From a virus: DNA of 41,299 nucleotides. A program made the translations under genes and the position numbers. Shown here one piece after another: positions 4,050 through 26,240 of the stretch. The stretch spans positions 1 through 41,299 of the IMG/VR virus record IMGVR_UViG_3300037329_000042, one strand, 5' to 3'. The first letter of the stretch is position 1. Every line of letters begins with the position of its first letter. Below the pieces are notes generated by a model that worked only from the letters and a program-made list of their open reading frames with translations, was not told the origin of the DNA and made no database searches.

Positions 4050-4528
4050 CGTCCTAGTACAGTTAAAAGTGCTTAAATTAGCAAACCAACATGGTTCTAG
4101 GGCTACATCAAATCCGTCCGAGTACGGTCCTAATCCGTCCGAGTATACTAGGACGTAATTTTTTTAACGATAACAATAACTTACAACCAAAAAAACCCAT
4201 CCGTCCCAGAATATCGCGACTCTCTGAAACTTTCTAAATATATCTGACATATTATAACTACTACATATACTATTAATAGACAGTTTAACTATATATATTA
4301 TTTAGCTAGATACATAGTCTATACTATAATAAATATTAACTATAATCTGAAAAAGTTGTCCTATAAGTCTAAGATCCTAGGACGGATGCTCTACAGGCTA
4401 TATGGTTAAAAGGATACAGCCGTCCTAGTACAAAAAACGTACTTGGACGGGAAACCTATCAAATTCTCTGTAGACCATATACACCAACACATACAGCCGT
4501 CCTAGTATTCTGGGACGTACTCGGACGG
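4050..4528. repeat. Array of about eleven 12-mers, CCGTCCNAGTAC
   Basis: In the gap between divergent operons (3948-4644) the 12-mer recurs in both orientations. Plus-strand copies are at 4050-4060, 4114-4125, 4135-4146, 4201-4212, 4420-4431 and 4497-4508. Minus-strand copies are at about 4143-4155, 4377-4385, 4439-4450, 4507-4517 and 4517-4528. The seventh base varies (T, G, C, A) while the GTCC core is fixed. Some copies form inverted pairs: 4420-4450 gives a stem of 12 bases with one mismatch. The spacing and conserved core suggest binding sites of a single protein, as operators or origin iterons. Confidence 0.8.
4213..4370. other. Very A+T-rich core inside the 12-mer array
   Basis: About 160 bases with almost no G+C runs, free of 12-mer copies and of reading frames, flanked on both sides by array copies. 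The arrangement resembles a DNA-unwinding element beside iterons, but could equally be a promoter-rich spacer. Confidence 0.45.
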
Positions 4529-4644: not shown

Positions 4645-5142
4645 ATGAAAATAATAGTAGATTTAGACGGGACATTGTTTGACAACAGAGCTAGGGCACA
4701 TTTAATACCACCAACAGACAAACAGTGGTCAACTGCAGCGTGGAAACCTTTTAATGAAGCATGTCTCATATATGATAAACCAATACTTCACGTTATCGCA
4801 CAAGTCAAAGCATTGTATTGGGGTATACCAGGACCATCCAAGCAGCTAATATTCTTAACCAGTCGAGGGGAAGACGCCGAACCACAAACCAAAGAACAAT
4901 TAGTAATACACTTCCCTAAACATGTATTTCAACGACAAAGATTAATAATGCGACAAATGGATTGTAACCATTTACCTGTAGAGTTTAAAGACAGGATGTT
5001 GGAACGTATTGTTAAACCGGAAGATAATGGTATAGCGATACTGTTTGACGATCATCCTGGGATCATTGAAATGGTCAAAATCAACTACCCACGGATAATA
5101 GCGGTTCAGGTTGACAGTTATTGTTCAAGTCTACAGAAATGA
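4645..5142 (+). CDS. HAD-superfamily phosphatase
   Basis: A 165-residue haloacid dehalogenase fold protein with all four motifs intact: DLDGT (6-10, nucleophile Asp 6 and acid/base Asp 8), LTSR (71-74), Lys 115 and FDDH (134-137, metal ligands). The small size without a large cap is like the 3'-phosphatase part of phage polynucleotide kinases and phage nucleotidases, so a nucleic-acid end or nucleotide substrate is likely but unproven. It is the first gene of a plus-strand cassette whose other members are a membrane coiled-coil protein and a receiver domain, placed just after the 12-mer control region. A protein-phosphate substrate in that cassette is only a speculation. Confidence 0.82.
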   Translation: MKIIVDLDGTLFDNRARAHLIPPTDKQWSTAAWKPFNEACLIYDKPILHVIAQVKALYWGIPGPSKQLIFLTSRGEDAEPQTKEQLVIHFPKHVFQRQRLIMRQMDCNHLPVEFKDRMLERIVKPEDNGIAILFDDHPGIIEMVKINYPRIIAVQVDSYCSSLQK

Positions 5143-5204
5143 CTTAGACCATAGTTTAAAAAGCTGATACCATTCAATAAAATAACAACGATGGATGGTA
5201 TCTA

Positions 5205-5525
5205 GTGTTTGGCCTTGAAAACAACGAAGTGTTTAAATATTTATGGGCCTTAGTCATTATACCCATAGGTTTTTGGATCAATAACATACTCACAGAACGA
5301 AAGTTAGCAAAGAAACGTACATCACAGACAATGACCAAGGCAGAGATAAAAGAACTCATTGCTGAATTAGAAAAGACAATCAACGAAAAAATTGATAAAG
5401 TCGTAAAAGACCAAGAAGAACTTGAAGCAGATTTCAAAGTGATTAACAGGGATTTTATGAAGTTTGTTGATACTTTCTATTCCAAGTTAACCGAAATTAC
5501 ATTAAAGATATTGGGGAAACAATGA
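5205..5525 (+). CDS. Single-span membrane protein with coiled coil (106 aa)
   Basis: One N-terminal membrane span (about residues 11-30, LWALVIIPIGFWINNIL) followed by basic residues and a long charged helix (about 45-85) with heptad-like Leu/Ile spacing, likely a coiled coil. The start is GTG at 5205: an in-frame stop just upstream rules out an earlier start. The layout resembles XhlA-like or inner-spanin-like phage proteins, but there is no lysis gene beside it. Instead it overlaps the receiver-domain gene by ATGA, so the two products are made together and may interact at the membrane (inference). Confidence 0.68.
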   Translation: MFGLENNEVFKYLWALVIIPIGFWINNILTERKLAKKRTSQTMTKAEIKELIAELEKTINEKIDKVVKDQEELEADFKVINRDFMKFVDTFYSKLTEITLKILGKQ

Positions 5526-6013
5526 GACGTTTACGAGTGTTACTGGTAGGTATTGGCGGTGGTTCTATGTCTGTCGTCTGTGATGCCTTGTTGCATTCAG
5601 GTATCGAGTTTAGAAAGGTCAATGATAGCGATCTTGCACTACCTCTGATAAAAGAGTACGAACCTAGTATAATCATCATGGATATTAAATCGCCACAGAT
5701 AGCAGATAACCATCTTTATAAACAGGTAAGGTCCAATCCTGAAACTGAAAACATACAGTTCATTTGCCTATCTGCAGACGATAACGTGAAAGATGTTATG
5801 ACCGGCGTAAAACTAATGGTGGTAGATTTCATTGAAAAACCAATAGCAATACAGACGCTACTTGACCACATTATGATCCTCGATTTTTCCGCAAGCATCA
5901 CACAAGAACTTAAAGGGTTTGAAACCAACGTAAAATTAATGTGCGCTAAATATAATGTTGACAAGCATCAGTCAACTAAGTATTCTAAACATTCCAACAA
6001 CCTACTGTCCTAG
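5522..6013 (+). CDS. Orphan response-regulator receiver (REC-like) domain
   Basis: A receiver-fold protein of 163 residues. It has the beta-3 phospho-acceptor in IIIMDIKSP (Asp 54), the beta-4 switch residue in CLSAD (Ser 84) and the beta-5 FIEKP (Lys 106, Pro 107). The acidic pair that normally follows beta-1 and binds magnesium is missing: the segment reads VLLVGIGGGS. It is therefore either a degenerate pseudo-receiver or one that works without normal metal binding. No output domain follows; the C-terminal 40 residues are polar and Lys/Ser/Asn-rich. A phage receiver could titrate or mimic a host two-component regulator. It is the last gene of the cassette and is followed by a terminator. 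Confidence 0.78.
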   Translation: MRRLRVLLVGIGGGSMSVVCDALLHSGIEFRKVNDSDLALPLIKEYEPSIIIMDIKSPQIADNHLYKQVRSNPETENIQFICLSADDNVKDVMTGVKLMVVDFIEKPIAIQTLLDHIMILDFSASITQELKGFETNVKLMCAKYNVDKHQSTKYSKHSNNLLS

Positions 6014-6040: not shown

Positions 6041-6068
6041 AGCCACTTTTTATAGGTGGCTTTTTTTT
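6041..6068 (+). terminator. Rho-independent terminator
   Basis: Perfect AGCCAC/GTGGCT stem (6041-6046 with 6056-6061) with a nine-base loop, followed by an eight-T run, 28 bases after the receiver gene. It ends the 4645-6013 cassette. Confidence 0.85.
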
Positions 6069-6552: not shown

Positions 6553-6921
6553 ATGAGTTCAGTAAAATCAGCAAGAAAATCGGCAATTCACAGAAAAGCC
6601 ATTGATATTACAAAGGCAGTTTCTAACGTAAATAGTACCCTAAACGGTCACATGAGCGAAGTACTTATCTACGCTGCAGCGATGCACAAAATTAATCTTG
6701 ATGCGATTGCTGCGAGTGATACTGATATGATAATTGATGCAGCCGATGTTGCTTTTTATGATGCTGCGTTTAACGAGCAAGTTTTTGCCTTGAATGCAAC
6801 ATTAGCAAGATTGTTACCGTTACTAGGTTTGCAAACAGGAGAAGTCACCAAAGCCGATTATATTGCATCGGTAAACCAGACACAGCTTACTGAATATATA
6901 GCCGCGTTCGACAAGTCGTAA
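6553..6921 (+). CDS. Hypothetical protein (122 aa), adhesin operon
   Basis: Mostly helical, Ala- and Asp-rich protein starting MSSVKSARKSAIHRKA, with a basic N-terminus and no membrane segment. It lies five bases after the membrane protein gene and four bases before the fibre gene. Its place suggests a virion component or fibre-assembly protein, but no family was recognised. Confidence 0.68.
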   Translation: MSSVKSARKSAIHRKAIDITKAVSNVNSTLNGHMSEVLIYAAAMHKINLDAIAASDTDMIIDAADVAFYDAAFNEQVFALNATLARLLPLLGLQTGEVTKADYIASVNQTQLTEYIAAFDKS

Positions 6922-6924
6922 ATT

Positions 6925-8892
6925 ATGTCAATTACAATTGCTGACTACAGCTATCGACAACTGATAACAGGTAATGCCCCCGCTTCTAGTTTAAGTGGGT
7001 TTGTTGCACTTATTACCGAAGCAAACGTTGACTCTACATTTTTCGATAATGTAGATAATGGTGGCGGTGATGTACGTGTATCTATTAATTCTGATGGTAC
7101 AAGCCAGCTCCCCTTAGAAATTGTTCTTTGTAATACTGCAACTGATAAGTTAATAGCGTGGGTTAGATTTCCTACATACTCAACAAGTGCAAGAGAGTTG
7201 TATGTATTCTCACGCAACACAGGACAAACACAGCCAGCAGTCACAGCAACATACGGGCGCAACAATGTATGGCAAGACCAAAAAAGAGTTTATCACTTAG
7301 ATGGTTCATCTTTTACGGACAGTACAGGTAGTTCAGATTTAGTGCAAAGGTCAGGTAGTACTCCTCCCACAAGAACAGGCCCGTTCGACTCTCCTGTTGC
7401 TGACTTTGATGGGTCTACTACGCTAAAAGCCACAAATGGCATTAGTGCTGTAAGAAGTATGGCGGTTTCTGTTTGGGTTTTAAGAGATACTGGCGGCCCT
7501 AGTGAGGGGGCAGTATTTGGAACAGATGATATAACCAATGATAATATTGATTTTGGTACTAGATTTGATTTAGTAGGCTCGCAAACAGACAATACAGACA
7601 CATACAAAAGCGCGATAAAAGGTAATATAGCGCAAGGCGCTCCGAGCAATTCTTCACCTTTAAATGTTTGGCATAGAATAACATTAGTAAAGGACGGGGA
7701 CACCGGTAGGTTTTATAAAAATGGCACAGAGCTTGTAAACTGGTTTTTATTTACTGAAACTTTAACAGTAGTCGATTTATTAGTAGGTGTTGGGCAACAG
7801 AGAGACGAGTGGCAAGGTGGGCAAGCTGAATTTATCATACAAGATTCTGTGCCTTCCCCCAATACATTAAGTTTAGAATACGCAAACCAAAGTAACCCTG
7901 CAACATTCTGGACACAATCAACACCTGACGACCCTAGCGGTGGCGGTGGCGGAACAGAATACGATTTAACATTAAATCAAGGTGTATATTCTCTCACAGG
8001 TCAACCCGTTTCGTTATTAAACGAACGTGCTATATCGCTTGACCAAGGTAGTTACGATTTAACAGGCCAACCGGTAGATTTATTAACCGAACGTGCTATA
8101 TCGCTTGACCAAGGTAATTATTCAACAACCGGTGCAATTTTTACCTTTGATTATGTTGTACCTTTAAACTATAACTTCTTATTAAACCAAGGTATATATT
8201 CTATCACAGGTCAAATAATTAACCTGTTAACAGAACGTGCTATATCACTCGACCAAGGTAATTACGATCTAACAGGTCAACCTGTTTCGTTACTAACAGA
8301 ACGTGCTATATCACTCGACCAGGGTAGCTACGATATAACCGGACAACCTGTTTCTTTATTAGCTAACCGGTCCTTATCGCTTGACCAGGGCAATTACGAT
8401 GTAACCGGACAACCAGTAAACTTACTTGCTGATAGGGTATTGGATCTTCAACAGGGTTCATACACAATTACCGGTAGATCTATTACGTTTAGATACATAG
8501 AAACAAACGCCTATAATCTAGTGTTAGGTCAGGGTAGTTATAGCACTATTGGATCTGATTTTACGTTTGATTATGTGGTGCCAAACCAATACAATATCAC
8601 CCTTGCGTCAGGGTCATATTCTACCACTGGTGATGAAGTATCGTTGTTAGTTGAAAGAATGTTAACGATGGGTGCAGGTTCATATAGTAGCGAAGGGTTG
8701 CCTATAACAGCACTGTTTCACAGGCAATTAACAATGGATGCTGGCGTATATACTACGGTTGGATCATCTGTTAGTATTGCTTACATCGAGTTTTCAGGGT
8801 TTGAAATTGGTAGTTACTCAATTAGTTTTGTGCAAACACCTGTTCAGGCGTATTATGATGACTTATTAGTCAACACAACATACAAACATTAA
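6925..8892 (+). CDS. Virion adhesin/fibre with LamG-like domain and repeats
   Basis: A 655-residue protein, likely a surface fibre that binds host sugars. Residues about 1-125 resemble DUF2341 (the LIAWVRFPTYS and VYHLDGSS segments). About 130-335 looks like a LamG/concanavalin A-like jelly roll (VADFDGS, MAVSVWV, NVWHRITLVKDG), a carbohydrate-binding fold. A GGGGG hinge then leads to about twelve repeats of 22-26 residues with the core QGSYDLTGQPVSLL. The C-terminus ends in a short unique tail. Downstream genes encode further virion-like proteins. It is transcribed opposite to the main tail operon, so it may be a later acquisition or a separately regulated host-range module. No chaperone or enzymatic motif is seen. 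Confidence 0.78.
   Translation: MSITIADYSYRQLITGNAPASSLSGFVALITEANVDSTFFDNVDNGGGDVRVSINSDGTSQLPLEIVLCNTATDKLIAWVRFPTYSTSARELYVFSRNTGQTQPAVTATYGRNNVWQDQKRVYHLDGSSFTDSTGSSDLVQRSGSTPPTRTGPFDSPVADFDGSTTLKATNGISAVRSMAVSVWVLRDTGGPSEGAVFGTDDITNDNIDFGTRFDLVGSQTDNTDTYKSAIKGNIAQGAPSNSSPLNVWHRITLVKDGDTGRFYKNGTELVNWFLFTETLTVVDLLVGVGQQRDEWQGGQAEFIIQDSVPSPNTLSLEYANQSNPATFWTQSTPDDPSGGGGGTEYDLTLNQGVYSLTGQPVSLLNERAISLDQGSYDLTGQPVDLLTERAISLDQGNYSTTGAIFTFDYVVPLNYNFLLNQGIYSITGQIINLLTERAISLDQGNYDLTGQPVSLLTERAISLDQGSYDITGQPVSLLANRSLSLDQGNYDVTGQPVNLLADRVLDLQQGSYTITGRSITFRYIETNAYNLVLGQGSYSTIGSDFTFDYVVPNQYNITLASGSYSTTGDEVSLLVERMLTMGAGSYSSEGLPITALFHRQLTMDAGVYTTVGSSVSIAYIEFSGFEIGSYSISFVQTPVQAYYDDLLVNTTYKH
7969..8760 (+). 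repeat. Internal repeats of the fibre gene
   Basis: About twelve units of 66-78 bases encoding Gly-Ser/Asn-Tyr-x-x-Thr-Gly repeats. Several adjacent units are nearly identical at DNA level (for example around 8025-8130 and 8230-8330), sharing GAACGTGCTATATC and related blocks. Length change by recombination is likely. Confidence 0.82.
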
Positions 8893-25227: not shown

Positions 25228-25390
25228 CAAAGACATAGTAAACAAATTAATACTTCACTTCAACACTGGTAGATTTAACACTATTGTTGATGGGATAGAC
25301 CACGGTGATTTAATACAGATACTAGAAGAAGTATTAACGCACCGTGATACTTTAGAGCAGATAGCAGAACTATCTAAGCCCATGGTTTAA
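25220..25390 (+). CDS. Small hypothetical protein (56 aa)
   Basis: Frame starting MIDKDIVNKLILHFN (an ATG one codon earlier at 25217 is equally possible) that overlaps the polymerase 3' end and closes the plus-strand operon. Helical and acidic. Its stop overlaps that of the convergent holin-like gene. Likely real by position; function unknown. Confidence 0.55.
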   Translation: MIDKDIVNKLILHFNTGRFNTIVDGIDHGDLIQILEEVLTHRDTLEQIAELSKPMV

Positions 25391-25875
25391 GACTTTTTAC
25401 CACCAAACTTTTCCATAGCACCAACAACTATTTTACCCATGTGTGGGGCAGCAAAGTAAAAAGCAAGTATTAGCATTACTGCTCCACTCATTCGATCCGC
25501 TTTATTATCTAAAGCTATTTCACTGGCTTTTAGTTTCTGGTACGTACTCGCAGCACCATCAATCAATACACCCATTTCATTTACAGGTATGGTTGCGTCA
25601 ACCCAAGGTGATATAACACCCATAATAGTACTGACACAATACATGCCTAACCAAACAGCAGTTATCGCAACAGCAAGTGTCCTACGTGCTATATTCTGAC
25701 CCTTGGTTGTCTCCATCCAATCAGCTATAAATTTACGTACTTGTTGTGCCTTATTGTTTCTATCCGCGACTTTTTCTTCGTCAGTATAAAACAAAGCGTC
25801 ACCGGCCCTTTCTATAATACCTAACCCTTGTGTTACATGCTTTTCCGTACCAAAAATTTTACCCCAAATGCTCAT
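25387..25875 (-). CDS. Holin-like membrane protein (3TM/GTA-holin type)
   Basis: A 162-residue protein with a basic/charged N-terminal part, the segment GQNIARRTLAV (about 60-70), and two clear hydrophobic spans (about 68-92 and 130-150) with a polar stretch between. This is the layout of the three-span phage holins (GTA_holin_3TM-like), which open the inner membrane at lysis. The start at 25875 is favoured over an ATG 21 bases upstream because GGAG stands eight bases before it and it overlaps the DUF5675 stop as ATGA. Last gene of the tail operon. Confidence 0.68.
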   Translation of the reverse strand: MSIWGKIFGTEKHVTQGLGIIERAGDALFYTDEEKVADRNNKAQQVRKFIADWMETTKGQNIARRTLAVAITAVWLGMYCVSTIMGVISPWVDATIPVNEMGVLIDGAASTYQKLKASEIALDNKADRMSGAVMLILAFYFAAPHMGKIVVGAMEKFGGKKS

Positions 25876-26240
25876 GATCTTATCTCCAATAACCAATCAT
25901 CTTCACCAAACCAACCAAGTAACAATTGACATGCTTCAACGCTATCATGTGCTACACCATTTTTAATAAACATACATGGACCCAGACAACCCTCTAAGTC
26001 ATACACAAAGTTAACAGGATGTATTTCGATGAACGTGCGGCCCTCTACGTCGATCAATTTATACCAACGATGTTTGCCTGTATGATCTCGTTTGACCTTG
26101 TAGACTCCTTCTTTGATACATGAGACAAAAGGTTTATTATCCAACCATGGTCGTTCTAATATCGATATTACCTGACCGTTTGGTAACTCTAGCAAACTTT
26201 CAGTCCTATCTTTGTAATACGTTCTGACTGCAGTTCTCAT
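25872..26240 (-). CDS. DUF5675 family protein, candidate lysis enzyme
   Basis: A 122-residue protein matching DUF5675: LERPWLDNKPFVSCIKEG (28-45), DVEGRTFIEIH (64-74) and HPVNFVYDLEGC (74-85). The family is found beside phage holins and endolysins. The His 74 to Cys 85 arrangement (IH...EGC) resembles the active site order of L,D-transpeptidases, so peptidoglycan attack is possible, but this has not been shown for this protein. No other endolysin is visible in the window. It overlaps both neighbours by four bases. Confidence 0.72.
   Translation of the reverse strand: MRTAVRTYYKDRTESLLELPNGQVISILERPWLDNKPFVSCIKEGVYKVKRDHTGKHRWYKLIDVEGRTFIEIHPVNFVYDLEGCLGPCMFIKNGVAHDSVEACQLLLGWFGEDDWLLEIRS

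Follow-up and report, generated by a model that had tools for sequence, protein, structure and literature searches.

A conserved pair of membrane-protein and receiver genes in a marine virus record and in Alteromonas phages, with a suggested role in the timing of lysis

The functional unit at the locus analysed here is a pair of adjacent genes (5205–6013), encoding a small membrane protein and a stand-alone receiver-fold protein, and not the set of three genes that includes the preceding HAD phosphatase gene. Seven phage groups share the pair, unrelated Alteromonas phages among them, and in the relatives it usually lies beside cell-bursting genes, which suggests an overlooked control on the timing of infected-cell bursting. 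The window, as the whole stretch of DNA under study is called below, comes from a virus of marine bacteria; it is an IMG/VR virus record 41.3 kb long, of siphovirus-type layout. Its capsid has its nearest relatives among Vibrio phages (1244 group, 48%); these closest capsid relatives yielded no match to the receiver, and none was obtained when the window region was compared with phages by megablast.

Organization of the locus and conservation of the pair

Three open reading frames are located on the plus strand where the earlier note had placed them: an HAD phosphatase gene (4645–5142, 165 aa), a gene for a single-span membrane protein with an N-terminal transmembrane (TM) segment (5205–5525, 106 aa, GTG start), and a gene for the receiver-fold protein (5522–6013, 163 aa). 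The latter two share a 4-nt ATGA overlap (5522–5525, plus strand) indicative of translational coupling, and an intrinsic terminator follows the pair on the same strand (6041–6068; −11 kcal/mol and z about −3.5 for 6041–6061). Of the promoter and terminator that the earlier note had assigned to the cassette, the terminator stands (z −3.46) and a specific promoter is at most putative, its best match being one of 25 promoter-like sites in an AT-rich stretch; a gap of 62 nt separates the HAD gene from the membrane gene, and a transcript common to the HAD gene and the pair is likewise no more than putative. An inverted repeat, GATACCAT/ATGGTATC, occupies 5160–5204, directly 5′ of the GTG codon with which the membrane gene opens. 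The repeat array reported ahead of the cassette is real, with nine CGTCCTAGTA-like sites in 4050–4527 against 1.3 expected for the whole window; the copies lie in both orientations in AT-rich non-coding DNA, and the array is a candidate replication origin or regulator-binding region.

The same two-gene arrangement was sought by tblastn and profile searches, and the pair was found in the window with its relative L001 and in six lineages of Alteromonas phages: R9Y1–3 with the metagenomic L018; H4/4 with R8W (Autographiviridae, Foturvirus); PT11-V19 with R22Y; PB15 with XX1924; the myovirus V22 with L022; and the schitovirus A5 with L023. At the 13 loci, the junction between the two genes is the 4-nt ATGA overlap in eight, an 11-nt overlap in two, and an abutment within 4 nt in three; the ATGA overlap is spread over four of the seven groups (besides the window, in R9Y1, L018, H4/4, R8W, PB15, and XX1924). 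The proposal that the membrane and receiver products act together, originally drawn from this overlap, thus gains support from the recurrence of the pair in seven phage groups. Among the annotated isolate records inspected, the pair occurs solely in Alteromonas phages, and scans of viral contigs with the PT11-V19 and PB15 receivers yielded nothing more. Receiver records from other phages (Listeria, Staphylococcus, and faecal 'Bacteriophage sp.') were discarded as mostly unannotated or host-like DNA; the record of Pseudomonas phage Y1 (L012), inspected closely, carries what look like host genes for chemotaxis and diguanylate cyclases, and the remaining records were assessed from the hit list alone. 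Several phage records, such as Listeria phage LM 4-11-1 and Y1, thus seem to contain response-regulator genes of the host, probably through contamination.

L001 carries all three genes adjacently on the same strand, with a receiver 96% identical to that of the window. Judged from the substitutions between the two, this comparison shows purifying selection on the membrane and receiver genes: all 7 changes in the membrane gene are synonymous, leaving an identical protein, and the receiver gene differs by 11 synonymous and 7 amino-acid changes (pN/pS 0.17). The HAD gene differs by 4 synonymous and 6 amino-acid changes. When window 6553–8892 is set against L001 3777–7266, another gene stands in place of the first one of the fibre region and the large fibre gene differs, with the adjacent pair nearly unchanged.

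By family assignment, the HAD gene encodes a nucleic-acid enzyme separate from the pair, of which it is only a neighbour, as one alternative in the earlier note had it. The protein belongs to the polynucleotide 3′-phosphatase family: it matches the PNKP phosphatase family phrog_415 (E 2e-30), scores just below the cut-off of Pfam PF25109 (27.5 against 27.6 bits), and bears the HAD motifs DxDGT, T/S, and DD. It contains no kinase domain. Its relatives are present in 916 phage records, many of them labelled polynucleotide kinase/phosphatase, and the gene can be located elsewhere, for instance in Vibrio phage VS-ABTNL-3. A cassette of all three genes, with the receiver as the protein that the HAD phosphatase dephosphorylates, would accord with the adjacency of the genes on one strand in the window and L001; however, the gene adjoins the pair in these two only and is missing at the pair loci of the six other groups, which, together with the enzyme family, makes such a cassette very improbable. 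The reading of the three genes as one set was accordingly rejected: in relatives, the HAD gene is indeed found apart, but the membrane and receiver genes stay together.

The receiver and its membrane partner

The receiver fold ascribed to the product of 5522–6013 is confirmed by a match to PF00072 above the curated cut-off (E 1.4e-10), an AlphaFold2 model of the protein alone with alternating beta-alpha order (pLDDT 78, pTM 0.70), and Foldseek matches of this model to the VicR, RpaA, DivK, RR468, and PhoB receivers (E 2.5e-8 to 5e-7). The protein shares with CheY-type stand-alone receivers (PF00072) the (beta-alpha)5 fold and the phospho-Asp, Ser, and Lys positions, retained as D54, S84, and K106 in line with the earlier reading of the sequence; however, it differs from them in the absence of the beta-1 acidic pair, in an extended alpha-5 of about 44 residues (the last helix of the model, 110–153, exceeds the canonical receiver length), in its co-production with a membrane protein, and in being encoded by a phage. 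In the window and L001, G10-I11 replaces the Mg2+-binding beta-1 acids, and on this residue evidence the window protein has the fold of a receiver without being a canonical phospho-receiver. The full phosphorylation site is retained in five of the seven groups; the PT11-V19 and R22Y receivers have kept the beta-1 acids and lost the phospho-Asp, Ser/Thr, and Lys. Because active-site residues have been lost in both the window and PT11-V19/R22Y, phosphorylation cannot be the shared mechanism, and the shared function must tolerate its loss, which fits a binding role.

The phage receivers (147–163 aa) have no second Pfam domain and no DNA-binding domain, a helix alone following the receiver of the window, and a PhoB-type transcription factor is thereby ruled out. 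The deposited label 'DNA-binding response regulator' at L003 6962–7423 and L011 4001–4462 (PhoB in the R8W paper) is attached to proteins without a DNA-binding domain. Support for a single origin of the phage receivers varied with the host receivers sampled: they form one group in a tree with 29 of these (support 92/88), but the grouping loses its support when 50 are included (3 changes), and either a single spread or repeated capture may lie behind them. The window receiver has a very long branch. The nearest Enterobacterales receivers (395 genomes) are 36% identical and are situated within open frames of about 290–340 codons.

In the partner protein of the window, hydropathy and charge place the TM at about residues 9–30 with basic residues after it, and its structural model, of low confidence, consists of helix throughout, in keeping with the single span and helical nature of the coiled-coil protein described in the earlier note. 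The partners of all groups measure 93–125 aa and have one hydrophobic span, weakly hydrophobic in V22 and A5, with basic residues at the end of it that faces the long soluble part. From hydropathy and charge alone, an N-out/C-in topology with a cytoplasmic tail is predicted, and the helical tail of the window partner is probably cytoplasmic. The R9Y and H4/4 membrane proteins are homologous (E 1e-3); for that of the window, no significant relative was detected among isolate phages. In PB15 and XX1924, the slot before the receiver holds an XhlA-family protein (phrog_937, 'hemolysin'), a family of lysis proteins known from PBSX-type cassettes, which has its span at the C-terminus rather than at the N-terminus as in the window protein, and the latter lies outside the family. 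An i-spanin reading of the membrane protein was abandoned, as the charges point to C-in and V22 and A5 carry their own Rz/Rz1 genes.

The architecture of the partner can be compared with that of LysF1b of mycobacteriophages, the deletion of which causes a severe lysis defect (PMC13056207), and of the releasin gp25 (DUF2730) of phage Mu (PMC9239132). Alike are the length of about 100 aa, one N-terminal TM, the basic residues, and a helical tail predicted to be cytoplasmic, and the likeness extends to the lysis setting in the Alteromonas relatives of the window. However, the resemblance is architectural and without sequence similarity, the window partner has no Pfam match to the releasin family DUF2730, and a receiver gene always comes after that of the partner here.

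Lysis-gene neighbourhoods and the proposed function

The partner gene is within or beside a lysis cassette in most relatives, but not in the window. In R9Y, a lysozyme gene comes after the pair, and in H4/4 and R8W a class II holin gene comes ahead of it. The pair is followed by an M15 endolysin and a 3-TM holin in PB15 and by DUF5675 and a 3-TM holin in XX1924, while in R22Y the genes for DUF5675 and a 3-TM protein converge on the pair, PT11-V19 being alike by gene size and order. In V22 and A5, the pair is succeeded by the gene for Rz, with that for the Rz1 lipoprotein embedded in it, and by a gene for a holin-like protein with 2 TMs; in A5 the annotated endolysin comes next. Since DUF5675 in XX1924 fills the slot of the M15 endolysin of PB15, it may be a lysis enzyme; DUF5675 stands beside a 3-TM holin-type gene in the window (25387–26240, minus strand), in L104 (2438–3237), and in L020 (5452–6440). 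The likely lysis genes of the window are these two on the minus strand (DUF5675, 25872–26240; 3-TM holin-type, 25387–25896). They lie about 19 kb from the pair, and the lysis reading is therefore weaker for the window itself; evidence from gene neighbourhood is in any case indirect. Tail-fibre or other tail genes are near the pair in the groups examined, and in the window the pair adjoins fibre-type genes (Laminin_G_3 in 6925–8892).

The reading preferred here, the probability of which is put at about even, is that the receiver binds the tail of the membrane protein and sets when the latter acts in lysis. Inserted N-out/C-in, the membrane protein would bind the receiver with its helical tail, probably at the extended alpha-5, and the two together would control lysis, in that the receiver restrains or frees a lysis protein of the LysF1b/releasin kind. 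Where the active site is complete, the setting of this switch could depend on host phosphorylation state; in the window phage, the receiver is more likely a fixed binding module, as the metal-binding acids are missing. A more specific and distinctly doubtful version holds that host kinases or acetyl phosphate would charge the receiver and so time the single-span lysis protein, giving a signal-gated lysis switch in Alteromonas phages, with the window and PT11-V19 lineages having a phosphorylation-independent timer. T4 lysis inhibition (holin T with the antiholins RI and RIII) embodies the same idea of a soluble partner that controls a single-span lysis protein; however, both the T domain and the site of RI action are periplasmic. 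We know of no sequence or fold relation between the pair and T, RI, or RIII.

Interference with host two-component signalling, as the earlier note suggested, is a possible but rather unlikely competitor. By binding host histidine kinases or the chemotaxis apparatus, a membrane-tethered receiver would block or divert signalling, during infection or against a superinfecting phage. The receiver fold is compatible with such a decoy, as are the loss of the active site in two groups, the nearness of tail-fibre genes, where exclusion genes can sit, and the restriction of the isolates to Alteromonas phages, which fits a host-specific target. However, a decoy has no need of a co-translated membrane partner and gives no reason to expect repeated siting beside genes for holin, endolysin, and Rz, and the residues lost differ from group to group; the position of the pair in relatives, mostly beside lysis genes, favours the lysis role over signalling interference.

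Two further readings are each judged improbable. Published annotation treats the receivers of V22 and A5 as CheY-like auxiliary metabolic genes, located in a host-recognition module common to both phages, and names that of R8W PhoB (PMC7289586, PMC10579305, PMC8228385), which would make the receiver a booster of host chemotaxis or phosphate metabolism. These proteins form the same receiver and membrane protein pair as in the window; they were published as single metabolic genes, the membrane partner and lysis context being unrecognised there. A metabolic role leaves the conserved partner and the lysis-side position unexplained, normal phosphorylation is impossible in two groups, and 147–163 aa without a DNA-binding domain do not make a PhoB. 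Alternatively, the pair may be a passenger that moves with tail-fibre genes in an exchanged host-recognition module and serves virion assembly or the fibres, in agreement with its closeness to fibre or other tail genes in the groups examined and with the whole module, including fibre and chaperone, common to A5 and V22 (PMC10579305). Nevertheless, the fibre genes and chaperones vary between groups while the pair stays, the genes beyond 6548 of the window are swapped in L001 while the membrane protein remains identical, and a virion location of a membrane protein is unlikely.

Searches of the freely available full-text literature turned up no account of the pair, nor of any receiver situated in a lysis cassette. 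The pair and its context correct the published CheY/PhoB 'metabolic gene' annotations, and the pair is present in the cultured phages H4/4, R8W, V22, A5, and R9Y1. Holin accumulation is regarded as the main determinant of lysis timing, joined in T4 by the sensing of superinfection. If the lysis-control reading is true, two-component signalling would be tied directly to phage lysis timing across several phage families, and under a signal-gated switch the phage would read the state of its host to time the burst.
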